DNA of 64,000 nt, from contig NZ_BDCO01000002.1 of the NCBI RefSeq assembly GCF_001613545.1, forward strand, positions 1,550,001 to 1,614,000, written 5' to 3'. How positions within the stretch are numbered: position 1 is the stretch's first letter; each line of letters starts with the position of its first letter. Shown here in pieces: positions 21,853 through 36,119 of the stretch. The translations under genes and the position numbers were made by a program. The notes under the pieces are model-generated. The model searched no databases and was not told the DNA's origin. It was given only the letters and a program-made list of their open reading frames with translations. The stretch comes from Terrimicrobium sacchariphilum (GTDB lineage: Bacteria; Verrucomicrobiota; Verrucomicrobiia; Chthoniobacterales; Terrimicrobiaceae).

Positions 21853-22518
21853 ATGGCCAACTTCTTCCCGAAATGGACAAATCAGCTTCCGTGGAAAGTG
21901 GTTGTCTGCCTGAGCGTTCTGACTCTCTCGATCGCTGCGGCGGTCACCTATTATTTTACCCCGAAATATACAAAAGTGGGTTACCAGCCGACGCAGCCGG
22001 TTCCCTTTTCCCACGCCCTGCACGTTGACCAGCTCGGCATGGACTGCCGGACGTGCCACAGCTTTGTCGAGGTGGCCTCGCACTCGAATGTGCCCTCCGT
22101 GCAAACGTGCATGAGCTGCCACACGCAGATCAAGCCTGACAGCCCGAAACTCGCTCCCGTACGAGCCGCCTGGAACGAGGGCAAAATGGATGGTCCCCCG
22201 GTGAACTGGGTGCGCATCCACCGGCTGCCGGATTACGTCTATTTCAACCACGCGGCGCACGTGAATCGCGGGGTAAGCTGCTTTTCCTGTCATGGAAATG
22301 TCAATACGATGGAGGTGGTCTATCAGCACGAGCCGCAGAGCATGAGTTGGTGCCTGGACTGCCATCGCCAGCCGGAGAACGCGCTGCGGCCTCCCTCGGA
22401 AGTGTTTAACCTGAACTGGAAGGCCACGTCGGCGCACGAGCAGTACCAACTCGGCAGCAAGTTCAAGGCAGAGTGGGGGGTGAATCCGCCCACGGATTGC
22501 GGAGGGTGCCACCGATGA
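21853..22518 (+). CDS. actA: Alternative complex III subunit ActA, pentaheme cytochrome c
   Basis: This 221-residue protein has one N-terminal membrane helix (about 15-35) and five CxxCH heme-binding motifs at residues 65-69, 86-90, 143-147, 167-171 and 216-220, exactly the heme count of ActA. In alternative complex III, a quinol:electron-acceptor oxidoreductase that replaces the bc1 complex, ActA carries electrons on the outer face of the membrane. A ribosome-binding site AGGAGA lies before the ATG. The last codons overlap the start of actB (ATGA). Confidence 0.95.
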   Translation: MANFFPKWTNQLPWKVVVCLSVLTLSIAAAVTYYFTPKYTKVGYQPTQPVPFSHALHVDQLGMDCRTCHSFVEVASHSNVPSVQTCMSCHTQIKPDSPKLAPVRAAWNEGKMDGPPVNWVRIHRLPDYVYFNHAAHVNRGVSCFSCHGNVNTMEVVYQHEPQSMSWCLDCHRQPENALRPPSEVFNLNWKATSAHEQYQLGSKFKAEWGVNPPTDCGGCHR

Positions 22519-25500
22519 AGCGGAAATTGCCTCATCCCCCGCGTGAAAGCCGCCCGGCGCTGTGGCGAAGCTTTGCCGAGCTGGAGAATACACCGGAGTT
22601 TGCGCAGGTCATTGAGCGGGAGTTTCCGGGCGGTATCGAGAAAAATGGCTCCGGGCTGACCAAACGGGATTTCGTGAAACTGATGGGCGCGTCTGTCGCC
22701 CTTACCGCGCTGACGGGATGCCGACGCCCCGAGGCGCAACTCGTGCCGTTTACCAAGGGTGTCGAGTGGAGTGTACCGGGCAAGTTTCTCTATTACGCCA
22801 CGGCGATGCCGACTCGTGGAGGGGCGATGCCGCTGGTGGCGAGCACGGTCGACGGGCGTCCCACCAAGCTGGAGGGCAATCCCCTGCACCCTGCCAGCAA
22901 TGGGGCGACAGATTCCTTTGCCCAGGCCAGCGTCCTGGATTTGTACGATCCGCACCGGTCGCGGGCAGTGAAGCGCGGCGGGCGCGAGGTACTGGCCGGG
23001 GAGTTTGAGGCTTTTCTCGCCCAACTCAGCGAGAAGCGCCCGCAGGGGCTGGCCTTTTTGGTCGAGCGGAAAAACTCGCCTACGCGTGACCGACTGCGGG
23101 GCGAGATCGAGCAGCGCTTCCCCGGTCTGATCTGGAGCGAATACGAGCCGCTCGGCGATGATCACGAAGCGGTGGCGGCGGTCTTTGGGCCGGGAGTGCG
23201 TCTCGTGCCGAAGTTTGAACGCGCGGACGTGATCCTCGCGCTCGATAGCGATTTTCTTTCCTCCGCCAGCGAGTACGGACCTGCCTATGCGGCGGGCTTC
23301 TATCCCCGCCGGAATCCCGACCAGCCCGGCGCTCCGATGAACCGGCTCTATGTGGTGGAGAATCACTTCACCTGTACGGGCGGCATGGCGGATCATCGCC
23401 ATCGCTGCAAGGCCTCGCTCATCGGGGAGTTTACCCGAAGGCTGGCGACGCGGATCGTTGAGTTGACCAATCATTCCGGACTCGCGACGGTGCTGGGCGC
23501 GGCCCCCCAGACCAAGGCGGACTTTGATGAAAAGTGGATCGCGGAATGCGGGGCGGATCTGGCGAGAAATCCCGGACGAAGTCTCGTACTCGCCGGAGGT
23601 CAACAGCCGGCGTGGGTGCAGGCGCTCGTCTTTGGCATCAATGAGGCGCTGGGCAACCATGGCATGACGATTCTCGGCGTGGCCGATGAGGCCCCGCCGA
23701 CAGCGCCGCTCGGGAAGCTCGTGGAGGCGATGCGTGCGGGTGCGGTGAAGACGCTTTTCATCCTCGGAGGAAACCCCGCCTACAATGCCCCGGCGAATTT
23801 CGTTTTTCGCGACTTGCTGGCTCGTGTGCCTGAGGTGGTGCGGGTCGGGATGTTTGAGGACGAGACCTCGACGGTTTCCGAGTGGCATGTTCCCGCAGCG
23901 CATTATCTGGAAGCCTGGGGCGACGCGCGGACGTTCGAAGGAACTTATACCGCGATCCAGCCCATGATCTTGCCGCTCTGGGGTGGGGTGTCGGAATTGG
24001 AAATACTCGCGAGATTGGCGGGAAATGCCCAGCCATCGGGTCTCGATCTGGTCCGGCAAACATATGGACTCCTTTCCGGAGCGACGTCCGTTGAGGGATG
24101 GAGTGAATTTTTACGCGATGGCTTTCTGCCCGGCTCGCAGGCGGCAGCCAGGGAACTCGCGTTTCGAGCGAATGAGGCGGTGAGGCTTGCTGGGGACGCC
24201 GTTCCGGTTGAGGGGGGGATCGAACTGGTCTTCCTTCAAAGCTCAAGCGTCGATGACGGGCGGTATGCTAATAACAGCTGGCTGCAGGAGACGCCGGACT
24301 TTGAGACAAAGGTGACATGGGATAATGTCGCGCTGGTCAGCCCGGCGACGGCGGCGCGGTTGGGGATTCGCGCCAATAACTTTGGCCTGTTGCAAAAGGT
24401 GACCGCGATCAATCACGAGGTCGATTTCGACATGGTGGCCGACCTGATCACCCTGAAGGCGGGTGACGTCGCCATCGAGGCGGCGGCGATTGTTGCCCCG
24501 GGCCATGCGGATGATTCGATTTCGCTCGCGCTTGGATATGGACGCAAAGGCGTGTCGGCGCTGTTTGAAAATGTCGGCTTCGATGCCTATCCGATGCGGA
24601 CGAGCGACGGCCCGCGCTTCCGCACGCCAATCTCGGTGAGTGTAACGGGGAGAACCTATCCGCTCGCGCGCACGCAGGAGCACAAAAGCATGGAAGGCCG
24701 CGACCTGTTCCGCGAGGGAACGCGGGAGCGATACAAGACGGACCCAAAGTTCGTGCAGTCGATGGGCCTCGTGGATGCGCACAACCCGCCCACGACATCA
24801 CTTTACGAGCATCCCAGGCTGACCGCCCCGGAGCAGTGGGGCATGGCGATCGACCTGAATACCTGCATCGGGTGCAGCGCGTGCGCCGTGGCCTGCCAGG
24901 CGGAGAACAATGTACCCGTGGTCGGCAAGGCGGAGGTGCGACGCAATCGCGACATGGCGTGGATGCGTATTGACCGCTACTTTGCCGGAAGCCCGGAAAA
25001 TCCCGAGATGCTGGCGCAGGCGATGCTGTGCCAGCACTGCGAGAACGCGCCATGCGAGTCCGTCTGCCCGGTCAACGCCACCGTGCACAGCGAGGAGGGG
25101 TTGAATCTCATGGCCTACAATCGCTGTATCGGCACTCGATATTGCGCTAACAACTGCCCGTGGAAGGTTCGGCGGTTCAACTATTTTGACTACAACCAGC
25201 GTCCGCTGGAGGAGCTTTACTGGGGACCGCTCGCGCCGAAGGGCATGGCAGACAGCCTCAAGATGGTGAAGAACCCCAACGTCACCGTGCGCATGCGTGG
25301 CGTGATGGAGAAGTGCACCTTCTGCATTCAGCGGATCGAGGAGGCAAAAATCTCTCGCATGGTGCAGGCCGGACCTCGGAACAAGTACGACGTGCCGGTG
25401 CCGAAGTTCCAGACGGCCTGCCAGCAGGCGTGCCCGAGCGACGCGATTGTTTTTGGCAATATTGCGGACCCGAAGGATCGCGTGACGCGTTTGCGCCAGA

Positions 25501-25643
25501 GCGATCGCGGGTACGTGACGCTGAAGTACCTGAACACGCAGCCACGCGTGACCTATCTCGCCCGCATCAAGAATCCCAACCCCGCCATGCCGGACGCTGG
25601 CAGCGTGGGAATGGCGAACGGACCGGAGGGAGTTCATCACTAG
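22515..25643 (+). CDS. actB: Alternative complex III subunit ActB, molybdopterin-like and Fe-S fusion
   Basis: This 1042-residue protein fuses the two ActB parts. The first 750 residues resemble a molybdopterin oxidoreductase that in this complex is known to lack the cofactor; the last 290 form a ferredoxin-like domain. Near residue 55 a Tat-type signal [20 protein letters not shown] carries a possible lipobox Cys. The cluster-binding motifs are [11 protein letters not shown] (from about 784), [24 protein letters not shown] and CTFCIQR with CQQACPSDA, enough for three 4Fe-4S and one 3Fe-4S cluster. The ATG at 22515 overlaps the actA stop. Confidence 0.95.
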
Positions 25644-25645
25644 CC

Positions 25646-27049
25646 ATGGCGGAAGGAACACTCAATCCTGCCGAGGAAAGTGCCCGCATTGCGGTGGAGC
25701 GTCCGCCGCTCGTTGCGCCTGGACGCACGATGGGGTGGATTTCGGACTATGTCAGCTCCATCGTCGAGGCCCAAACGCCGCGTTGGTGGTGGGTGGCGAT
25801 ATCCATCACGGGAACCCTGCTGCTTGTGCTGATCGCCTGCACCACCTATCTCGTCGCCACGGGGGTGGGCGTGTGGGGTAACAACCACCCCGTCGGCTGG
25901 GCGTGGGATATTACGAACTTCGTCTTCTGGATCGGCATCGGCCATGCGGGCACGCTGATCTCGGCCATTCTCTTCCTTACCCGCCAGAAATGGCGCACCT
26001 CGATCAATCGCGCTGCCGAAGCCATGACCCTCTTTGCCGTGATCTGCGCGGCGATCTATCCGACAATGCATGTGGGGCGTGTCTGGATGTCGTGGTTCCT
26101 CATTCCTGTGCCGAATGCCAACGGGATCTGGCAAAATTTCCGCAGTCCGCTGATGTGGGATGCCTTTGCGGTCCTCACGTATTTCCTCGTCTCGGTTCTC
26201 TTCTGGTACACCGGGCTGATTCCCGACCTCGCCACGCTGCGCGACCGTGCGACGACGAGGGTTCGCAAGTTCTTCTACGGCATTCTCGCGCTGGGATGGC
26301 GAGGGGGGAATCGGCAATGGAGGCACTATGAAATGGCGTACCTGCTGCTCGCAGGGCTCTCCACACCGCTTGTGCTTTCGGTTCACTCGGTGGTTTCGTT
26401 CGACTTTGCGGCCTCGGTGATTCCCGGATGGCACACAACGATCTTCCCGCCGTATTTCGTCGCCGGGGCGATTTTTGGCGGGTTTGCGATGGTATTGACG
26501 ATCCTTATTCCGGCACGTGCGGTTTATCGTCCGCTGGGCGATCTGATCACCGTTTCGCACATCGACAAGATGTGCAAGGTCCTGCTCTTTACCGGATCCA
26601 TCGTCGGATACGCGTACCTCATGGAGCTGTTCATGGCGTGGTACAGCGGCAATCCCTTTGAGCGCGCCACCTTCTGGTACCGGGCGACGGGGCCGTACTG
26701 GTGGGCCTATGCGCTGATGGTCCTCTGCAATGTCGCCGTGCCGCAGTTGCTCTGGTTCCGCTTTTTCCGGACGCATGTGATCTGGGTCTTTGTCATCGCG
26801 ATGTTTGCCAATGTCGGGATGTGGTTTGAGCGCTTCGTCATCGTGGCGACCTCGCTGACCCGTGATTTCCTCCCGTCGTCATGGGGCATGTTTCACCCGA
26901 CCTGGGTGGATGTCGCGATGTTTGCCGGGACGTTTGGGCTCTTTGGTACGCTGTTCCTGCTTTTCATCCGGTTCCTGCCCATGATCTGCATGTTTGAAGT
27001 CAAGGCGGTGGCGCCGTCAGCCAATTCTCATCAAGGAGGAAACCCCTGA
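25646..27049 (+). CDS. actC: Alternative complex III subunit ActC, NrfD-like
   Basis: The 467-residue integral membrane protein belongs to the NrfD/polysulfide-reductase membrane subunit family, with about ten helices. It forms one of two quinol-facing subunits in complex [19 protein letters not shown] and the HSVVSFDFA region are typical of ActC. The ATG at 25646 comes 2 bases after the actB stop. Its final TGA overlaps the actD start by one base. Confidence 0.93.
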
Positions 27050-27609
27050 TGGACACCGCCGGTAACACCGCCTCGCCCATGTATGGAGTGGGCGCCGAGT
27101 TTGCGTCGGCCGCCGACCTCCTGCGGGTCGCGAAGGAGATTCGCGCGGCGGGATATGAGAGCTTTGATGTTTTTTCGCCCTTTCCGATTCATGGAATGGA
27201 CAAAGCTGTCCAATTCCGCCGTTCACCGCTGGGGCGGATCGTCTTCATCGGCGGTCTGACGGGTTTTCTCACGGCAATGGCGCTGCAATACATCCCGTCG
27301 GCAGTCATTTATCCGCTCATCCTCCATGGAAAGCCGTTCGGTTTTTTTGCCATCCCGGCCTACTTCCCGATTCTCTTTGAAACGACGGTGCTTTTCTCGG
27401 CATTCACCGCTTTCATCGGTTTGCTGATGATAATCGGGCTCCCCCGGTTCAATCATCCGCTTTTCAACTGGGAGCGTTTCAAGGGTGTGAGCGCTGATGG
27501 ATTCTTCGCGGTGATCGAATCACGCGATCCGAAATTCGCTCCAGCCGAGGCCGCGGAATTCCTCGCCTCACTCGGTGGCAGCAACGTAACCATAATCCAC
27601 GAGGACTGA
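27049..27609 (+). CDS. actD: Alternative complex III subunit ActD (DUF3341)
   Basis: The 186-residue protein has a soluble N-terminal part (ADLLRVAKEIRAAGYESFDVFSPFPIHGMD, key features only: the FSPFPIHGMD motif), two membrane helices (about 62-80 and 100-125) and a short soluble tail. This matches DUF3341/ActD, a heme-free complex III subunit. It overlaps actC by one base, and a good site AGGAGG lies about 8 bases upstream. Confidence 0.93.
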   Translation: MDTAGNTASPMYGVGAEFASAADLLRVAKEIRAAGYESFDVFSPFPIHGMDKAVQFRRSPLGRIVFIGGLTGFLTAMALQYIPSAVIYPLILHGKPFGFFAIPAYFPILFETTVLFSAFTAFIGLLMIIGLPRFNHPLFNWERFKGVSADGFFAVIESRDPKFAPAEAAEFLASLGGSNVTIIHED

Positions 27610-27613
27610 CCGG

Positions 27614-28306
27614 ATGCTGCGCACCTTTTTCATCCTGCTGGCCTTCGTCGCGATCCTGGTGGTCGTGATGCTCGGCGTGCGCGGGCAAAAGTCCCCGGCT
27701 CCGCCCTTTGAGATTTTCCCCGACATGGATCGCCAGCCGAAGGTGAAGGCCCAGGACCCGAGTACATTTTATGCAGACGGGCGCGCGGCGCGTCCGCCCG
27801 TGCCTGGAACAGTGCCGCTCGGATACGACCAGCCGCAGGAGCGTCCAATCAAGGGGGTCGTGACGGAATCCACCAGTCCGTACGATCGCGTGAACTTCGG
27901 GACGGGCACGGATTATTTCAATACCGGACGCATCGGCGCCCAATGGGGAACCGGCATTCCTTTTGAGGTGACGATGGAGACCATGCGGCGCGGGCAGGAA
28001 CGCTATACGATCAACTGCGCCATCTGCCATGGCGCCACTGGGGCGGGGGATGGCATGGCCAAGCAATTCGGACTAAACACCGTGCAAAGCCTCCATCAGG
28101 AGCGGCTGCGCACGATGTCGGATGGCGAGATTTTCAACACGATCACGAACGGCAAGAACACAATGTTCGGCCTCGGCGATCGCGTGCAGGTGCCGGATCG
28201 CTGGGCCATCATTGCCTATCTGCGTGCGCTGCAAAAATCCCAGGGCGGCGCGACGGCCAGCGAACTGCCACCGGAGGAGCGGGCAAAACTGCTTTCCACG
28301 CCATGA
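27614..28306 (+). CDS. actE: Alternative complex III subunit ActE, monoheme cytochrome c
   Basis: The 230-residue protein has one N-terminal membrane helix (about 4-22) and one class I cytochrome c domain with CAICH at residues 135-139. The N-terminal region EIFPDMDRQPKVKAQ is typical of ActE. It is the likely electron exit from complex III. Its last bases overlap the actF start. Confidence 0.93.
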   Translation: MLRTFFILLAFVAILVVVMLGVRGQKSPAPPFEIFPDMDRQPKVKAQDPSTFYADGRAARPPVPGTVPLGYDQPQERPIKGVVTESTSPYDRVNFGTGTDYFNTGRIGAQWGTGIPFEVTMETMRRGQERYTINCAICHGATGAGDGMAKQFGLNTVQSLHQERLRTMSDGEIFNTITNGKNTMFGLGDRVQVPDRWAIIAYLRALQKSQGGATASELPPEERAKLLSTP

Positions 28307-29484
28307 GCCTGCGACCTGATCAGAAATTCGATTACCGCCATGTGGGCTACGGCTTCCTTGCCGCATGCGCGCTCGCGGTGCTGGCGTTTCTCGGCTTGCT
28401 CATCGGCGCGTTCCTCGACGTGCGGCAGTTTGCGTTCTCGTATCTCTTTGCCTTCGTGTTCTTTTTCACGATCTCGCTGGGGGCGTTGTTCTGGGTGGTC
28501 GTGCATCATGCGGTGGATGCCGAATGGAGCGTGGGGATGCGGCGGCAGTTGGAAAATATCGCCTGCCTCTTTTCGGCGCTGGCGGTTTTGTTTATTCCGC
28601 TGGTCTTCGTTGCACCCGTCTTGTGGGCGTGGATGGATTCGGCGAATGCGGGCAATGCGGTGTTGCAGGAAAAGGCGGCGTATCTGAATCGCCCGTTCTT
28701 CTGGGGGCGTACGCTGGTTTATTTCGCGGTTTTCATCGGCTCGGCGTATCTGCTGCGTGCGTATTCGGTGGCGCAGGATGCGAGCGGGTCAGCGCGGTGC
28801 ACGGTTTATAATCGGCGTGTGGCCTTTGCCTCGATCGTGCCGGTGGTCCTGTGTGTCACCTTTGCGGCGGTCGACTGGCTGATGAGCCTCGACTGGCATT
28901 GGTTCTCCACGATGTGGGGCGTCTATCTTTTCGCCGGGGCTGCGTTGAGTTCGCTTTGCGTGCTGGTGCTCGTGGTGACGGCTTTGCGCTCCGTGGGCTA
29001 TTTCCAGGGGGTTATCACGGAGGAGCATTATCATATCCTGGGCAAGCTCCTCCTCGCTTTCACGATCTTCTGGGCCTACATTGGGTTTAGCCAATACATG
29101 CTGATCTGGTATGCCAACATCCCGGAGGAAACGAGCTACTTTATCCTGCGCAATACCGGGAGTTGGAATGTCCTTAGCATCCTGCTGGTGGTGGGGCATT
29201 TCATCGTGCCGTTCCTGCTTTTGCTGCCGAGCTTTGGCAAACGTCGTCCCGGCTTTCTCTGCGGAGTGGCATGGTGGATTCTCGCGATGCATTTGCTGGA
29301 TGTCTATCTGATGGTGTTGCCGGAACTGCATCGCGGCGGGTTCCGCCCGAGCCTCATGGATTTGCTTTCCGTGGTTGCGATTGGCGCGGCGCTCGTCGCG
29401 GCGTACCTGAAAGCGCTCGGCGACTCTGCGATTTACCCGGTACGCGACCCGAGGCTGCAACAATCCATCGATCTGCAAAACTGA
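28303..29484 (+). CDS. actF: Alternative complex III subunit ActF, NrfD-like
   Basis: The 393-residue protein has about ten membrane helices and is the second NrfD-like subunit of complex III. The stretches AAVDWLMSLDWHWFSTMWG and AYIGFSQYMLIWYANIPEE are typical of ActF. It overlaps actE by 4 bases and the next small gene by one base, so translation is coupled along the operon. Confidence 0.93.
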   Translation: MSLRPDQKFDYRHVGYGFLAACALAVLAFLGLLIGAFLDVRQFAFSYLFAFVFFFTISLGALFWVVVHHAVDAEWSVGMRRQLENIACLFSALAVLFIPLVFVAPVLWAWMDSANAGNAVLQEKAAYLNRPFFWGRTLVYFAVFIGSAYLLRAYSVAQDASGSARCTVYNRRVAFASIVPVVLCVTFAAVDWLMSLDWHWFSTMWGVYLFAGAALSSLCVLVLVVTALRSVGYFQGVITEEHYHILGKLLLAFTIFWAYIGFSQYMLIWYANIPEETSYFILRNTGSWNVLSILLVVGHFIVPFLLLLPSFGKRRPGFLCGVAWWILAMHLLDVYLMVLPELHRGGFRPSLMDLLSVVAIGAALVAAYLKALGDSAIYPVRDPRLQQSIDLQN

Positions 29485-29843
29485 TGTCCGTATCCCCACA
29501 GCCTCGCCATTTTCCGCTCCGGTTGATCGCCGGGGGCTTGGGCGTATTCGCGCTCTTTGCGGCGGCGGTGTTCGTCGTGCGCACGGGTGATCCGGGGCCG
29601 GCTCCGATGGATGCGGCTCGTGCGGAGGAACGACGTGCAGCCTTGGCGGAGCTCCGAAAGAGGGACACCGAGAGGCTGAATACCTATGCCGTGATCGACC
29701 GGGCAGGGGACTCGTTTCAAATGCCCATCGAGCGCGCGATGGAACTCGTCGTCAGGGAATATGCAGGGACATCGCCGCGTGCCGTCCCGCTCCCGCCAGT
29801 GCCGGAGGCGTCGCCTTCGGCCAGCCCAGTTGCCACGCCATGA
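29484..29843 (+). CDS. Small membrane-anchored protein between complex III and the oxidase-like module
   Basis: The 119-residue product has one membrane helix near the N-terminus (about 13-28), a charged helical part (AARAEERRAALAELRKRD), then a compact motif TYAVIDRAGDSFQMPIERAMELVV and a Pro/Ala-rich tail. The motif pattern, tyrosine-x-x-I/V-D ... G ... P-I-x-R-A-M-E, resembles small proteins I recall from oxidase operons with SCO genes, but I cannot name a family. Its start overlaps the actF stop and its end overlaps the next gene, so it is a true part of the operon and may help assemble it. Confidence 0.7.
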   Translation: MSVSPQPRHFPLRLIAGGLGVFALFAAAVFVVRTGDPGPAPMDAARAEERRAALAELRKRDTERLNTYAVIDRAGDSFQMPIERAMELVVREYAGTSPRAVPLPPVPEASPSASPVATP

Positions 29844-31234
29844 GCTCCGGTTTGTCAGACTCCGTGAAAAATGCGGGACGCTGGCCGCAGGGCTGGACTG
29901 ATCCGCTGCCGCGCTTGCTGCTGTGGTTTTCCGCCTCAGCCGCAAGCTGGCTGGTGGTCGGCCTGGCCTTGCTGATCATTGCCGGGGTCCAGGTCGTGAA
30001 TCCCGCCTTTCTCAGAGGCATTTCCGTGCTTGCCTTTGGGCGGCTGGTTCCGGCGGGGATCAATGCTCTTGTCTTTGGCTGGGGGTCGCTCTCTGCGATC
30101 GTGGCGATCCTGTATCTCCTGTCCCGCCTCGGCGGCGTCACCATTTCCTCGGCGCGGCTGCCTTACTGCGCCCTTGCTGCGTGGAATCTCGCCCTGCTGC
30201 TCGGTCTTTGCTCCATCGCGGCTCGCGGGGGAAATGGGCTGCTGCTGTTGGAACTTCCGCCCTTCGCCATCGTAACGATCCTGCTCGCCTATGCGGCCAC
30301 GGCGATCTGGGGGTATGCGCTTTTCCGCGGGCGGCGAATCTCGGGAACTTTTGCCTCCTCGTGGTATCTCGTGGCGGGGATGCTGTGCTTCCCCTGGCTC
30401 GTCGTAACAGGCAATGTCCTGCTGGTCTGGCTGCCTATCCCGGGTCCAGCCCAGGCTCCGGTGGCCGCGTGGTTTGCCGGGGGGATGATGAACCTCTGGC
30501 TCGCGCCGGTTTCGCTGGCGGCGATCTTTTACATCGTGCCTCAGGTGCTCGGGCGCAGGCTCGCTGCGTACAATCTCAGCCTGCTGGGTTTCTGGAGCTT
30601 TATGGTCTTTGCCGCATGGTGCGGATTGGGCCGAATGGTCGGCGGCCCCGTCCCGGCGTGGATGGCGAGCGTGGGCTTTGTCAGCTCGTTCCTCATGGTG
30701 GTCCCGGTGTTGATCGCCGGGGTGAATGTCTTCGGCGTGCTGAAAGGCACCTCCGAGTGGACTCTCCCGCTGCGCCACGCGGCTGCCGGTATCGGGGCAT
30801 TCGCTGGCACGTACCTGCTGGCAGCCATCCTCGCGATTCCTCCGGTGGCGGGAGTTTTTAACTTCACCGACATTGCCGTCGCTGTCGGGTTGCTCGGGCT
30901 CGGTGGCTTTGTGACCTTGTCGCTGGGCGGGCTGATCCAATTCGTCCTGCCGCAATTTGAGCGGCGCGATCCGCTGGCGGAGAGGCTCGGGTCATGGCAC
31001 CTGTGGCTTACCGTCATCGGCGTCGGGGCGGCGTCGGTATGTCTTGTGCTGGGGGGAATCCTGCAAGGGTTCGCCCAATCCGACCCGGGAATCGTTTTCA
31101 GCCACTCAGTGGATTACGTGATGCCTTTCCGCTTCCTGGCGCTGCTGGGATTACTGATCTTTCTCGCTGGGGCGGTGTGTCTTTTTCTCCGAGTTCACCG
31201 GGCTTTGGTCCGTCACCTGATTACGCCGCCATGA
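29840..31234 (+). CDS. CcoN-like oxidase subunit I without metal ligands
   Basis: This 464-residue, roughly 12-helix protein aligns along its length with cbb3 oxidase subunit I: LAFGRLVPAGINALVFGWG, YNLSLLGFWSF, GGPVPAW, NFTDIAVAVGLLGLGG and GSWHLWLTVIG all match CcoN landmarks. Yet every ligand is gone. By alignment the low-spin heme His is Gly73, the CuB His are Gly215, Gly264 and Arg265, the helix X His pair is Val349 and Leu351, and the active-site Tyr is Ala258. It cannot hold hemes or copper in the usual way. The frame is intact and overlaps both neighbours by 4 bases. I infer a structural subunit for the CcoO-like cytochrome next to it. Confidence 0.85.
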   Translation: MSSGLSDSVKNAGRWPQGWTDPLPRLLLWFSASAASWLVVGLALLIIAGVQVVNPAFLRGISVLAFGRLVPAGINALVFGWGSLSAIVAILYLLSRLGGVTISSARLPYCALAAWNLALLLGLCSIAARGGNGLLLLELPPFAIVTILLAYAATAIWGYALFRGRRISGTFASSWYLVAGMLCFPWLVVTGNVLLVWLPIPGPAQAPVAAWFAGGMMNLWLAPVSLAAIFYIVPQVLGRRLAAYNLSLLGFWSFMVFAAWCGLGRMVGGPVPAWMASVGFVSSFLMVVPVLIAGVNVFGVLKGTSEWTLPLRHAAAGIGAFAGTYLLAAILAIPPVAGVFNFTDIAVAVGLLGLGGFVTLSLGGLIQFVLPQFERRDPLAERLGSWHLWLTVIGVGAASVCLVLGGILQGFAQSDPGIVFSHSVDYVMPFRFLALLGLLIFLAGAVCLFLRVHRALVRHLITPP

Positions 31235-31845
31235 ACCGGACGCCTGCGATCATCGTCGGAGTGGTGCTGGTCTTTGCCTCGGCATGGCTGGGCGTCGCGA
31301 TGTATTCGTACATGACGCTTGGGTATCTCGCTCCTGTCGCGGATAAGGTCAGTGGCTCGACTCTGCCGCCTGCGCTATCGGGGCTGGCTGAGGCCGGGCA
31401 GAGAGTCTATGCCGCCGAGGGATGCGCCTACTGTCACACCCAGCAGGTGCGGCCCGCCGCGATCAGCGGGGACATCGAGAAAAAGCTCGGTTCCCGGCGC
31501 ACCGTGGCGAGGGACTTTCTTTACCAGCAACCCGCCGCCTTCGGGTATTTGCGCATCGGACCGGATCTGGCGAATTTCGGTCTGCGAGCTAGAGACGAGG
31601 CGGAGGTTCATCGCCTGCTGTACCAAACCGGCTCCGCCATGCCGTCTTATCAGTATCTTTATATCGTAAGGCCGATCTCCGGGCAGCAATCTGCCGAGGC
31701 GCTGGTGGGATTGCGAGGATCGTATGTTCCGCCGACAGGGTACGAAGTGGTTCCCACTCCCGAGGCGCGAGCTCTCGCAGCCTATCTGCTTTCGCTCAGG
31801 CAAGACTACGCCCTGCCGGAGGCGCCGCTGGAGAAGGTGAAATGA
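31231..31845 (+). CDS. CcoO-like membrane-anchored monoheme cytochrome c
   Basis: The 204-residue protein has one N-terminal membrane helix (about 7-28) and a cytochrome domain of the CcoO type: EGCAYCHTQQVRP with heme at 65-69, VARDFLYQQP, RIGPDLANFG, and Met137 in SAMPSY as the probable sixth ligand. In cbb3 oxidases CcoO feeds electrons to CcoN. Here the neighbouring CcoN-like protein lacks hemes, but this cytochrome keeps all its ligands. It overlaps its neighbours by 4 bases on each side. Confidence 0.88.
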   Translation: MNRTPAIIVGVVLVFASAWLGVAMYSYMTLGYLAPVADKVSGSTLPPALSGLAEAGQRVYAAEGCAYCHTQQVRPAAISGDIEKKLGSRRTVARDFLYQQPAAFGYLRIGPDLANFGLRARDEAEVHRLLYQTGSAMPSYQYLYIVRPISGQQSAEALVGLRGSYVPPTGYEVVPTPEARALAAYLLSLRQDYALPEAPLEKVK

Positions 31846-32546
31846 GCGATCCGCAGCGCGATTCCACTTCACCGCAGGAGGCGATCGACCTCGTCGAACT
31901 CCATGCCTCGGCCGCCCGCGAGCCGGTCAAGCTGTGGCTGGTCGGGGTAATCATGGGCGTGATGTTCGTGGGAGGCATGTTCCTTTGGGCAAATAGCGGA
32001 GGATTCAGCGCCTCGGTTTACGACCCCGCTCGTTCGGTCGCGGGAAAGGGCAGCGGCTCGCCCGCTCCGCCACCAGACCCGCGAATGATGAGTCGACGGC
32101 TTTATATGCAAAATTGCGGAGCCTGCCATCAGCCGAATGGCATGGGCATACCGGGAACCTACCCGCCACTGGCTGGCAGCGAATGGGTGCTCGGACAGGA
32201 ATGGCATGGCGATAACCATCTCGTACGGGTCGTGCTTCACGGTCTTCAGGGACCGATCACGGTGGAAGGTCGGGATTTCAACAATGTGATGACTCCATGG
32301 GGAGGGGTGCTCAAAGACGAGCAAATCGCCGCAATTCTCACCTACATACGATCGGAATGGGGGAATTCCGCCCCACCCATTTCGAAGGAATTCGTCGCCA
32401 TGATCCGGGAGGAAACCAGGGGACGGCAGGCTGCATGGACGCAAAAGGAACTGCAGGAGATTCCCCGGCAGGTTTCGCCTCCGCCGGTGGTCGAGCCTGC
32501 TCCTACCCCGGTGGCCAACCTCGATCAGACTCCCCGGGTTCCCTGA
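31842..32546 (+). CDS. Membrane-anchored monoheme cytochrome c (CcoP-position)
   Basis: The 234-residue protein has a cytoplasmic N-terminus, one membrane helix (about 32-50), a Pro/Ser linker and one class I cytochrome domain with CGACH at 92-96 and Met150 (NNVMTPWG) as likely sixth ligand, followed by a Pro-rich tail. It occupies the place of CcoP after CcoO, but has a single heme rather than two. It may relay electrons from the complex III and CcoO-like partners to a terminal oxidase. Confidence 0.87.
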   Translation: MSDPQRDSTSPQEAIDLVELHASAAREPVKLWLVGVIMGVMFVGGMFLWANSGGFSASVYDPARSVAGKGSGSPAPPPDPRMMSRRLYMQNCGACHQPNGMGIPGTYPPLAGSEWVLGQEWHGDNHLVRVVLHGLQGPITVEGRDFNNVMTPWGGVLKDEQIAAILTYIRSEWGNSAPPISKEFVAMIREETRGRQAAWTQKELQEIPRQVSPPPVVEPAPTPVANLDQTPRVP

Positions 32547-32680
32547 AATATCCGCGTGTTCGCCATCCGGCGCCGCATGTCTGACGTATATCTTTCGCGT
32601 GCCGGGATTGACCGGCGGGCGACTTCTGCCGAAAGTTCCACCTCCTGCACGCGTGCGTAACGTGAGCGAACGAAGTTGAT

Positions 32681-33862
32681 ATGAAGAAGAACACCTGGAC
32701 TTTTAGCGATTCATTCATCCACGGCTGGGCCATCCTGACGGCCTTCGTCACGCTCATCCTGATCTGGAGTGGGGGATTGGTGACATCCAAGGGAGTGGGA
32801 ATGTCCGTGCCCGACTGGCCGAATACTTACGGGTACAACATGTTTGCCTTCCCGATCTCGCGCTGGGTGGGGGGAATCTTTTACGAGCACGGACATCGGC
32901 TCATTGCCACTGGGGTCGGCGTGTTGACCACCGTCCTCGCGGCCTGCCTTTGGGGCCGGGAGACCACGGGAAAGATCAAGGCATTCGGTATTTCCGCCAT
33001 CATCTTCATCGTTCTGCTTCTCGGAGTTCGAGAGATGCCGGTGTACCTGACCTGCGCGGTTCTGGCCCTGCCGATGATCGCCTTCGGCATCGTCAAGTTC
33101 TGTCGGAATCCTCGCCAGCTTCGCTGGCTGGGCGTGGCAGTCTTCTCAGCAGTCATCCTTCAGGGAGTGCTCGGAGGACTCCGTGTCGTGTGGTTTAAGG
33201 ACCAGATCGGAATTTTCCATGGTCTTCTCGCCCAGGCTTTTCTGCTGACTCTGGCGATCCTGGCTGTGCTCACCAGCCGCGCTTTCCGGGAAGGGCGCTG
33301 GGTCGCGTATATGCCTGATCGCACGCTGGCGTACATCACATTGGCAACGACGGTTTTGATCTACTTTCAGCTAGGCCTCGGCGCCACGATGCGCCACGAG
33401 CACATCGGGCTCTCGATCCCGGATTTCCCGCTGGCCTACGGACGTGTGATTCCAGATACCTCGGCCGAAGCGATGGCGCAGATCAATGCCGGCCGCGTTC
33501 AGGCGGGACAGCCGCAGACCACGGCTTTTCAGGTGTGGGTACAAATGGTGCATCGTCTGACGGCGGTATGCATCCTGGTGGGGATCACGATGGTTTTCTC
33601 CCGGGCATGGCGGACGCGGCAGGCAGCGCCGATTCGTCGCTGGTCAGCGGTGTGGCTGACGTTGGTTGTCGTGCAGGTCTGCCTGGGGGCCTGGACCATC
33701 TGGTCGAATAAGGCGGCGGACATCGCCACGGGGCACGTCGCGGTTGGAGCCTTGATTTTGGTCGTCGGGGGGCTACTTTCCCTGCGAATGTTTTGCGGTT
33801 TGCGGACGGGAAATTTCGCTTGGCCGGACGCTCCAAAACACCCATTGATGAACGCCGCATGA
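32681..33862 (+). CDS. ctaA: Heme A synthase (Cox15/CtaA)
   Basis: The 393-residue, eight-helix membrane protein oxidises heme O to heme A. It shows the four family histidines in EHGHR, IFHGLLAQ, VHRLTAV and GHVAVGA, split into two homologous halves. GMSVPDWPNTYG and its counterpart IGLSIPDFPLAYG are the external-loop signatures. It begins 134 bases after the last cytochrome gene. Its presence implies a heme A oxidase in the cell, but no coxA is in the window. Confidence 0.94.
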   Translation: MKKNTWTFSDSFIHGWAILTAFVTLILIWSGGLVTSKGVGMSVPDWPNTYGYNMFAFPISRWVGGIFYEHGHRLIATGVGVLTTVLAACLWGRETTGKIKAFGISAIIFIVLLLGVREMPVYLTCAVLALPMIAFGIVKFCRNPRQLRWLGVAVFSAVILQGVLGGLRVVWFKDQIGIFHGLLAQAFLLTLAILAVLTSRAFREGRWVAYMPDRTLAYITLATTVLIYFQLGLGATMRHEHIGLSIPDFPLAYGRVIPDTSAEAMAQINAGRVQAGQPQTTAFQVWVQMVHRLTAVCILVGITMVFSRAWRTRQAAPIRRWSAVWLTLVVVQVCLGAWTIWSNKAADIATGHVAVGALILVVGGLLSLRMFCGLRTGNFAWPDAPKHPLMNAA

Positions 33863-34749
33863 TGAAGACAGCCGCACCCGCCCTCTCCCGACTCGAGTCC
33901 CTGTTCGGGGATTTGCTCGAGCTCTCGAAGGCGCGGCTCTCATTTCTCGTCCTGGTCACCACCTTTGTGGGGTTCATGGTGGGGTGGCAGGGGCCGATGG
34001 ATTACGTTCTGCTCTCGGCCACGCTGCTCGGCACGGCTCTTTGCGCTGCCGGGGCTGCCGCCCTGAACCAGTGGTGGGAGCGCGACCTCGACAGCCTGAT
34101 GAAGCGCACACGGAACCGTCCGTTGCCTGGACGCCGCATGCACCCGCAGGATGCGCTTCTCTTTGGACTCTTCTTTTCCCTGGCCGGACTGCTCGTTTTG
34201 GCCCTCTTTACGAATTACCGAGCTGCCTTTCTCGCCTTTGCGACCATCGCGATCTATGTGCTGGTATACACTCCGATGAAGCGCATGAGTTCGCTCAATA
34301 CGCTCGTCGGCGCCATCCCCGGCGCTCTGCCCCCGCTCATCGGCTGGATCGCAGCCCGCGGGGTATACGATCTCGAGGGCAGCCTGCTCTTCGCGATTCT
34401 CTGGTTCTGGCAAATGCCGCATTTCCTCGCCATCGCCTGGATGTACCGGGAAGACTATGCGAATGCGGGCTGTGTGATGCTCTCTGGTAGCGATGAAAGC
34501 GGCGAAATGACCAGCCGCCAGGCCTTCCTTTACGCGTTGTGTCTGCTCATGGTGAGCCTCCTTCCGGCGATCCTGTTTTTCAATACGGCGGTTTATTTCT
34601 TTGGGGCGTTGATCCTCGGGGCGGCGTTTGCCGGTTGCGCCCTGCACTTTATGCTGCGCCGGGATCGTCCATCCGCCCGGTTGCTGTTCCTTGCCTCGAT
34701 AGCCTATCTTCCCCTGTTGCTCGGGTTGCTGCTGGTCACCCAGCGCTGA
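33859..34749 (+). CDS. ctaB: Protoheme IX farnesyltransferase
   Basis: This 296-residue UbiA-family membrane enzyme makes heme O from heme B. NQWWERDLDSLMKRTRNRPLP, shown by the N-x-x-x-D-x-x-x-D core, binds the diphosphate, and YTPMKRMSSLNT and WFWQMPHFLAIAW are CtaB landmarks. The start at 33859 overlaps the ctaA stop (ATGA), so the two heme A enzymes are translationally coupled. Confidence 0.94.
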   Translation: MMKTAAPALSRLESLFGDLLELSKARLSFLVLVTTFVGFMVGWQGPMDYVLLSATLLGTALCAAGAAALNQWWERDLDSLMKRTRNRPLPGRRMHPQDALLFGLFFSLAGLLVLALFTNYRAAFLAFATIAIYVLVYTPMKRMSSLNTLVGAIPGALPPLIGWIAARGVYDLEGSLLFAILWFWQMPHFLAIAWMYREDYANAGCVMLSGSDESGEMTSRQAFLYALCLLMVSLLPAILFFNTAVYFFGALILGAAFAGCALHFMLRRDRPSARLLFLASIAYLPLLLGLLLVTQR

Positions 34750-34843: not shown

Positions 34844-35518
34844 ATGTCGACCGATTCCACTCCTTCCTCAGCCGCTCCCACTGAAAATCCCGCGCCCAAG
34901 CGCATTCCGCGTCTGGGCTGGGTGATTGTTTTTGTCGTTCTGGTGGGCCTTGTGGCTTTTGCCTACGTGAGCCTGCAAAAGATGCGCCCGGTCGCCTCGG
35001 CGTTGCCCAGGCTTGAGCAAGCCCCCGCCTTTTCTCTCACCTCGCAGGACGGCAAGACTGTGACCGAGGCCGTGTTGAAGGGGAAGGTGACGGTGTTGAA
35101 TTTCATTTTTACACGTTGCATGGGGCCCTGTCCCCGGATGAGTGCCCAGATGGGACATCTCAATCAGGCGCTCGGGCCGAAGCTCGAGGATGTCCAGCTC
35201 ATCAGTGTCTCCGTCGATCCTGAGCACGACACCCCAGCCGTGCTGGCGGAATATGGCCAGCGATTTGGCGCAGAACCCGGTCGATGGAAACTCCTCACCG
35301 GCCCGACCGACCAGATCCATAATGTCATGGTCAAGGGCTTCCTCCTGCCGCTCGGGACAGACAAGGATGGGATGCCTGCGCACTCCACCCGGTTCGTGAT
35401 TGTTGACCAGCAGGGGGTGATCCGAGGGTACGAGGATGGTGAAAGTCCGGAAGTGGTGCAAAAACTTCTGATGGACATCGGCGACCTCCTGCGAGAGGGG
35501 AAGAGCGGCTCCCGATGA
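34844..35518 (+). CDS. SCO1/SenC copper-delivery protein
   Basis: The 224-residue protein has one N-terminal membrane helix (about 26-42) and a thioredoxin-like domain facing outward. CMGPC is the copper-binding CxxxC, and HSTRFVIVD carries the third copper ligand. SCO proteins deliver copper to the CuA or CuB site of oxidases. It follows ctaB by 94 bases in the same direction. Confidence 0.92.
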   Translation: MSTDSTPSSAAPTENPAPKRIPRLGWVIVFVVLVGLVAFAYVSLQKMRPVASALPRLEQAPAFSLTSQDGKTVTEAVLKGKVTVLNFIFTRCMGPCPRMSAQMGHLNQALGPKLEDVQLISVSVDPEHDTPAVLAEYGQRFGAEPGRWKLLTGPTDQIHNVMVKGFLLPLGTDKDGMPAHSTRFVIVDQQGVIRGYEDGESPEVVQKLLMDIGDLLREGKSGSR

Positions 35519-35681: not shown

Positions 35682-36119
35682 ATGAGTGTCAGCGACCTAC
35701 CCGCCATCAACGCCAGTCTCAACGGCATCGCCACGGTGCTGCTGACAGCTGGTTTTATCCTGATTAAGACGAACCGCCCTGCAGCCCATCGCGTAGCGAT
35801 GCTCTCGGCATTTGGCGTTTCGATGGTGTTTCTGGTCACCTATGTGATTCACAAGATCCTCGTCCGCGGCGTACACACGCCCTTTGGCGGTGAGGGTGCG
35901 ATCCGGGGGATTTACTACGGGATGCTCATCTCTCACATCCTGCTGGCCATTGCCATCGTGCCGCTCGTGATCATCACCCTGCGTCATGCTTTCAAGGGCA
36001 ATCTCGACCGTCATCGGGCCTGGGCACGCTGGACATTCCCTCTCTGGTACTACGTCTCCGTCACCGGAGTGCTCGTGTATTTCTTCCTTTATCAATGGTG
36101 GCCGGCCGTCCGGCACTAA
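35682..36119 (+). CDS. DUF420-type membrane protein (CtaM-like)
   Basis: The 145-residue, four-helix protein matches DUF420: ASLNGIATVLLTAGF, AHRVAMLSAF, HKILVRGVHTPFGG, ILLAIAIVPL and HRAWARWTFPLWYYVSVTG. CtaM, a relative in Firmicutes, is needed for making aa3-type oxidases, so it belongs with ctaA, ctaB and SCO. It stands 163 bases after the SCO gene. Confidence 0.88.
   Translation: MSVSDLPAINASLNGIATVLLTAGFILIKTNRPAAHRVAMLSAFGVSMVFLVTYVIHKILVRGVHTPFGGEGAIRGIYYGMLISHILLAIAIVPLVIITLRHAFKGNLDRHRAWARWTFPLWYYVSVTGVLVYFFLYQWWPAVRH

Follow-up and report, generated by a model that had tools for sequence, protein, structure and literature searches.

The window, by which we mean the whole stretch of 64,000 nucleotides of Terrimicrobium sacchariphilum DNA that was analysed, carries on its + strand a homologue of CcoN without heme or copper ligands (29840..31234), which we call N. 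Judging from its sequence and its structural model, N is a real and unusual case of a protein with the heme-copper oxidase fold but no cofactors. It can be described neither as a copy that decayed locally nor as the representative of a uniform new family.

The N protein and its ligand columns

The reading frame of N (P0001) is undamaged, encodes 464 residues and overlaps each of its neighbours by the sequence ATGA (29840-29843 and 31231-31234). The only PDB sequences that match N are those of solved cbb3 subunits (3mk7, E 7e-20, residues 29-451), and its top NCBIfam match is the ccoN family TIGR00780 (E 1.7e-23). The model of N, which was built by AlphaFold2 with 57 orthologues as input, has a pLDDT of 91.8 and a pTM of 0.91. 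Nearly the whole chain was matched to solved CcoN by Foldseek (TM 0.88), and 441 residues were superposed on 3mk7 by VIA-align at 2.0 Å with a Z of 48. The claim of a preliminary description of this DNA that the homology to CcoN extends over the full length is therefore borne out, and the structural model that it had suggested as a check yields a predicted fold of 12 transmembrane helices. The next-best fold match after CcoN is NorB (Z 43 and 41), which shares the heme-copper oxidase fold with N; however, NorB keeps six histidines and has Fe in place of Cu, whereas N keeps none of the six.

The ligands are what define a heme-copper oxidase. The ligand columns of N were set by alignment with 3mk7 and by bridging alignments through canonical CcoN and live orthologues (those that keep the ligands), and the two procedures agree. 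The first low-spin-heme His column is occupied by Gly73 (codon 30056..30058, + strand, as are all codons given here), the first CuB His column, in helix VI, by Gly214 (30479..30481), and the columns of the CuB His pair by Gly264 and Arg265 (30629..30634). The codons of Val349, Gly350 and Leu351 (30884..30892) include the high-spin-heme His column, now Val349, and the second low-spin-heme His column, now Leu351. In helix VII, the column of the active-site Tyr holds Ala258 (30611..30613). The preliminary description had stated that all six histidines are replaced, and so they are, although the residue that it gave for the helix VI CuB column was Gly215, which occupies the adjacent Asn column; its placement of Ala258 agrees with the bridging alignments. 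It had also proposed that the ligand columns be inspected in a CcoN alignment, and no His stands at the heme or CuB positions of N, nor was one found in an alternative register near these columns in the alignments. The residues at the seven sites, GGAGRVL, are common to N of the window's two sister species.

Alignment and model together demonstrate that N of the window lacks the residues required for the hemes and CuB and hence should be incapable of O2 reduction, and we regard this loss of catalysis as nearly certain. The PF00115 match of N (118.8 bits) exceeds the cut-off of 34.8, whereas its score of 83.3 bits for the CcoN equivalog is far below the cut-off of 583.15 bits. On the features tested, N lies outside both the CcoN equivalog and the functional heme-copper oxidases, while homology and fold are shared. 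A further likeness to the cbb3 (C-type) oxidases is that the operons of both contain a CcoO-like subunit and a c-type cytochrome as partners; in contrast, N lies in an operon of alternative complex III (ACIII), and its partner P has one heme c where CcoP has two.

The ACIII operon and its orthologues

All of the genes described here lie on the + strand. The block that is conserved throughout the class starts with the pentaheme cytochrome of ACIII, which from homology and gene order we take to be ActA (21853..22518, five CxxCH). It is followed by ActB, the Mo-enzyme-like and Fe-S subunit of ACIII that was used in the operon tree (22515..25643, start approximate); ActC, an NrfD-like membrane subunit (25646..27049); ActD (27049..27609); ActE, a monoheme cytochrome c of ACIII with a CAICH motif and the domains Cytochrome_CBB3 and Cytochrom_C (27614..28306); and the membrane subunit ActF (28303..29484). 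Between ActF and N lies a small, poorly conserved protein with a single transmembrane segment (29484..29843), for which no Pfam or NCBIfam family was found. N is followed by its partner O, a CcoO/FixO-like membrane-anchored monoheme cytochrome c with a CAYCH motif (31231..31845; PF02433, E 4.5e-14), and by P, a membrane-anchored monoheme cytochrome c (31842..32546; PF00034, E 7.7e-13). Further downstream, in conserved order, are heme A synthase CtaA (32681..33862; PF02628), heme O synthase CtaB (33859..34749, start approximate), an SCO-type copper chaperone (34844..35518) and a DUF420 membrane protein (35682..36119; PF04238). No coxA is found between P and ctaA in the window (32546-32681), where the sister genus g2 (L043) has one; ctaA, ctaB, SCO and DUF420 stayed beside the ACIII operon, and the only A-type oxidase of the genome sits at 3.29 Mb. 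That oxidase is canonical, with six histidines present, and a bd oxidase is located nearby. A search of the same genome found no second CcoO-like gene.

Related loci were sought in genome contigs, where two close relatives were found (Spartobacteria bacterium LR76 and a MAG), and in a broader genome search that provided a wider sample of 127 N proteins. The N gene occurs throughout the class Verrucomicrobiae. Wherever a locus is long enough to show it, the genes share the order ActABCDEF, small protein, N, O, P, and coxA, ctaA, ctaB, SCO and DUF420 often come next. The window's N has the position typical of an ACIII-linked clade, between ActF with the small protein and the O-P pair, and it groups with that clade, from which canonical CcoN of the same family splits off with a support of 100.

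The ligands, counted as kept when five or more of the seven residues are present, are kept in 46 of the 127 N proteins and lost in 81. Forty-four of the live proteins keep all seven residues. The other two, L050 (HHCSHHH) and L052 (HRYHHHH), both of genus g4 in family f1, show partial ligand loss in an otherwise live N, which may mark the beginning of conversion or stem from errors in the draft sequences. In the lost group, all seven residues are gone in 34/81, the three CuB histidines are all kept in none (0/81), and the low-spin-heme His pair alone is kept in 11/81 (HN[AS]QRYH, family f11). The last state is seen at loci such as L080, L084, L087 and L088, and it is possible that an N of this type is a one-heme b-type cytochrome with an oxidase fold. 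The suggestion in the preliminary description that N is a heme-free member of the superfamily therefore suits N of the window but cannot be extended to every lost N. Live and lost N occur together within single families (f1, f10, f11, f21, f24 and f36), and even within one genus code (g5).

An ACIII operon surrounds every lost N for which upstream DNA is readable (77/77, that is, 76 loci and the window), whereas 6 of 44 live N lie outside ACIII, in families f7, f14, f85 and f118, and all six keep the ligands (Fisher p 0.002, uncorrected for kinship). In f85, the live N-O pairs of L150 and L152 lack ACIII and lie just downstream of a Rieske protein, a cytochrome b and a cytochrome with seven CxxCH, an arrangement in which the same oxidase type is tied to a bc complex. 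Two further variants were observed: ActC of L073 (G085), from a family with live N, is interrupted by an in-frame TAG, and in five operons of f4 with lost N (L064, L065, L069, L070 and L132) a longer P with two CxxCH is followed by a second P-like cytochrome.

Possible roles of an N without cofactors

We believe that cbb3-like cores linked to ACIII have been converted repeatedly and that N has probably been kept as a non-redox membrane scaffold for O and P, a role that we infer from synteny and sequence conservation. The ancestor of N would be the catalytic subunit of a cbb3-like oxidase with its N-O-P genes inside an ACIII operon; the 12-helix protein would keep the two cytochrome c subunits, O and P, attached to ACIII; and electrons from quinol would pass out of ACIII by way of the c hemes of P and O, to be taken up by either a soluble cytochrome c or a separate A-type oxidase. 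We favour a scaffold because the partners keep their hemes, because the lost N all lie in ACIII operons, because the columns of the fold are conserved, and because the organism's own genome has a canonical A-type oxidase elsewhere and a bd oxidase. In the account of Flavobacterium johnsoniae given in PMC8361435 (citing Sun 2018), ACIII and aa3 form a supercomplex in which ACIII is physically joined to a working A-type oxidase; in contrast, the adjacent protein of oxidase fold described here is non-catalytic.

The CxxCH of O survives in every live operon (46/46) and in all but one of the lost ones (78/79), and P retains both its CxxCH and Met150 throughout (live 41/41, lost 77/77). The probable axial ligand of O, Met137, is kept in 46/46 live operons and in 64/79 lost ones; where it is gone (15/79), the heme of O may change its role. 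Forty-five columns of N are conserved in live and lost proteins alike, including W37, P55, G67-R68, W81, R165, W175, P185-W186, W211, P270/P272-W274, N296, F342 and H387, and most of these shared residues are Trp, Gly, Pro or Arg that belong to the fold or the surface. On the question of whether bulkier side chains fill the core of lost N, the summed side-chain volume is not raised, and only two positions, G218 and G438, are frequently occupied by large residues.

An alternative is that N has gained a new active role: it might conduct protons or ions, bind quinone, or hold another cofactor in the heme cavities. Such a role would be consistent with the predicted fold, which is fully kept, with the 11 lost members whose only remaining ligands are the low-spin His pair and which might be b-type cytochromes with one heme, and with the Arg or Lys found at column 265 in 46/81 lost N. 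However, the replacements at the seven sites are scattered, and a conserved replacement ligand set was sought and rejected. Moreover, the polar residues that are invariant in live N, such as Y245, S247, Y321, T322 and S325, are mostly lost, which argues against a kept proton path and against the handling of protons or quinone by N that the preliminary description had entertained. We therefore consider a new active role unlikely, and a structural role as scaffold remains our preferred reading.

History of the ligand loss and the published cbb3 assignments

We also consider it rather likely, from the operon trees and the intermediates, that some 16 or more independent conversions across Verrucomicrobiae have each turned the catalytic subunit of an ACIII-linked oxidase into a structural, cofactor-free part of a quinol:cytochrome c supercomplex, with intermediates that keep a single b heme. 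The ActB+ActC tree tracks taxonomy. It requires 14 state changes on 67 rows, 12 of them forced, and 17 on 99 rows, 16 of them forced by supported branches; on the assumptions that loss cannot be reversed and that N and its operon are inherited together, the tree implies 21 losses. The tree of O agrees with it (11 changes, 4 forced). We infer many independent losses of the ligands, the exact number of which assumes that N alone has not been exchanged between operons. The change from core to scaffold would accordingly have occurred many times, and the intermediates suggest a likely route in which the O2 site was lost first and the low-spin heme, retained for a while as in f11, was lost later. 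An A-type coxA within the operon was rejected as a driver of ligand loss: a coxA within 8 kb is present in 36/64 lost versus 10/41 live operons before pairing by kinship, but no association is left among 13 kinship-independent pairs (median p 1).

A single origin, in which all lost N stem from one ancient non-catalytic paralogue that was passed between operons, is suggested by the first, quick N tree, from which only the seven ligand columns had been removed and in which 55 lost rows form one clade (SH-aLRT 96). However, when the columns within eight residues of the ligands are also removed, the N tree (44 rows) has 6 changes, at least 4 of which are forced, and the AU test rejects the grouping of lost N in one clade (p-AU 2.7e-7, lnL 171 worse). 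A clade that unites live and lost N of the window's family is compatible with the data (p 0.137), and the trees of ActB/ActC and of O follow taxonomy. The single lost clade is best read as the product of long-branch attraction and convergence, and we assign little probability to one ancient paralogue.

It could also be argued that N is a decaying former oxidase subunit held only by the inertia of its operon, because ligand loss is common and lost N evolves faster than ActB and ActC, as its long branches indicate. Pairwise averages of dN/dS (Nei-Gojobori, dS 0.2 to 1.2) are 0.10-0.11 for N in the window's genus, 0.05-0.06 for ActB, and 0.17-0.22 for the small protein, which is the fastest-evolving gene of the block in that genus and is nevertheless present in most operons. 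In other pairs of lost or heme-only N the ratio is 0.04-0.12, close to the 0.08-0.13 of live pairs with usable dS. These pairwise values show that dead N is under purifying selection and rule out neutral decay, while local relaxation is compatible with them. Neither relaxed selection nor broken frames, the marks of a pseudogene, are found in N, the lost orthologues listed have no internal stops, their overlapping starts and stops are retained, and the ligand loss is family-wide in several families and so is old. The preliminary description had argued against decay from the intact frame, the overlaps and the heme-competent partners, and had proposed a search for orthologues with the same losses and a measure of their dN/dS; such orthologues exist, their pairs give values of about 0.1, and the conserved operon points in the same direction. 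It had further held that orthologues with kept ligands would make N a local degenerate copy. Orthologues of this kind were found, even in the same family and operon slot, but they do not carry that implication, because the loss happened many times and persists long. Decay of N is thus already disfavoured, and we regard it as very improbable. That N-O-P still works as an oxidase through other residues, as the labels CcoN or "cbb3" in databases and reviews might suggest, can practically be dismissed, since the heme and CuB columns of lost N hold no His, Met or Cys set, quite apart from the complete loss of the seven residues in many of these proteins and of an intact CuB triad in all of them.

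An ACIII-linked C-type oxidase has been reported for verrucomicrobial methanotrophs and Opitutaceae, with the same order of ACIII followed by N-O-P as in the window, and is treated as a working cbb3 in the accounts consulted (PMC8498564, citing Refojo 2010; PMC6688271). For methanotrophs of the Methylacidiphilum type, a cbb3 oxidase beside ACIII is listed in genome papers and in a review (PMC6688271, PMC8498564), and one genome paper links it to high oxygen affinity (PMC6688271). In our sample, family f20 comprises eight genomes that each measure 2.2-2.5 Mb and contain PmoA-family genes, and would fit Methylacidiphilum and Methylacidimicrobium. In contrast to the literature, the N of both f20 operons that were read lacks the ligands, as does that of the window, whereas some N elsewhere in the class keep them. 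The residues at the seven sites are SESSHFV in L148 (G257) and ADAAHQT in L149 (G264), and these alignments indicate a dead N beside ACIII, with neither a heme nor a CuB site. The other PF00115 genes of f20 fall in higher-scoring groups; those inspected were A-type (L189), B-type-like (L196) and NorB-like (L205 and L206), and none was a canonical CcoN. The dead N of f20 is at odds with the published cbb3 assignments. As for ligand-less or non-catalytic homologues of heme-copper oxidases, the preliminary description knew of no such family, and our literature search, which had subscription papers and preprints outside its scope, likewise found no paper on one.

These observations indicate that the "cbb3 oxidases" published for the class Verrucomicrobiae may not be oxidases, and that the annotation "cbb3" from ccoN-like genes in this class requires a check of the ligands. 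Furthermore, repeated and selected loss provides many natural replicates for the non-catalytic roles of an oxidase core, and it lets one ask how a respiratory complex retains a subunit after its chemistry has gone.
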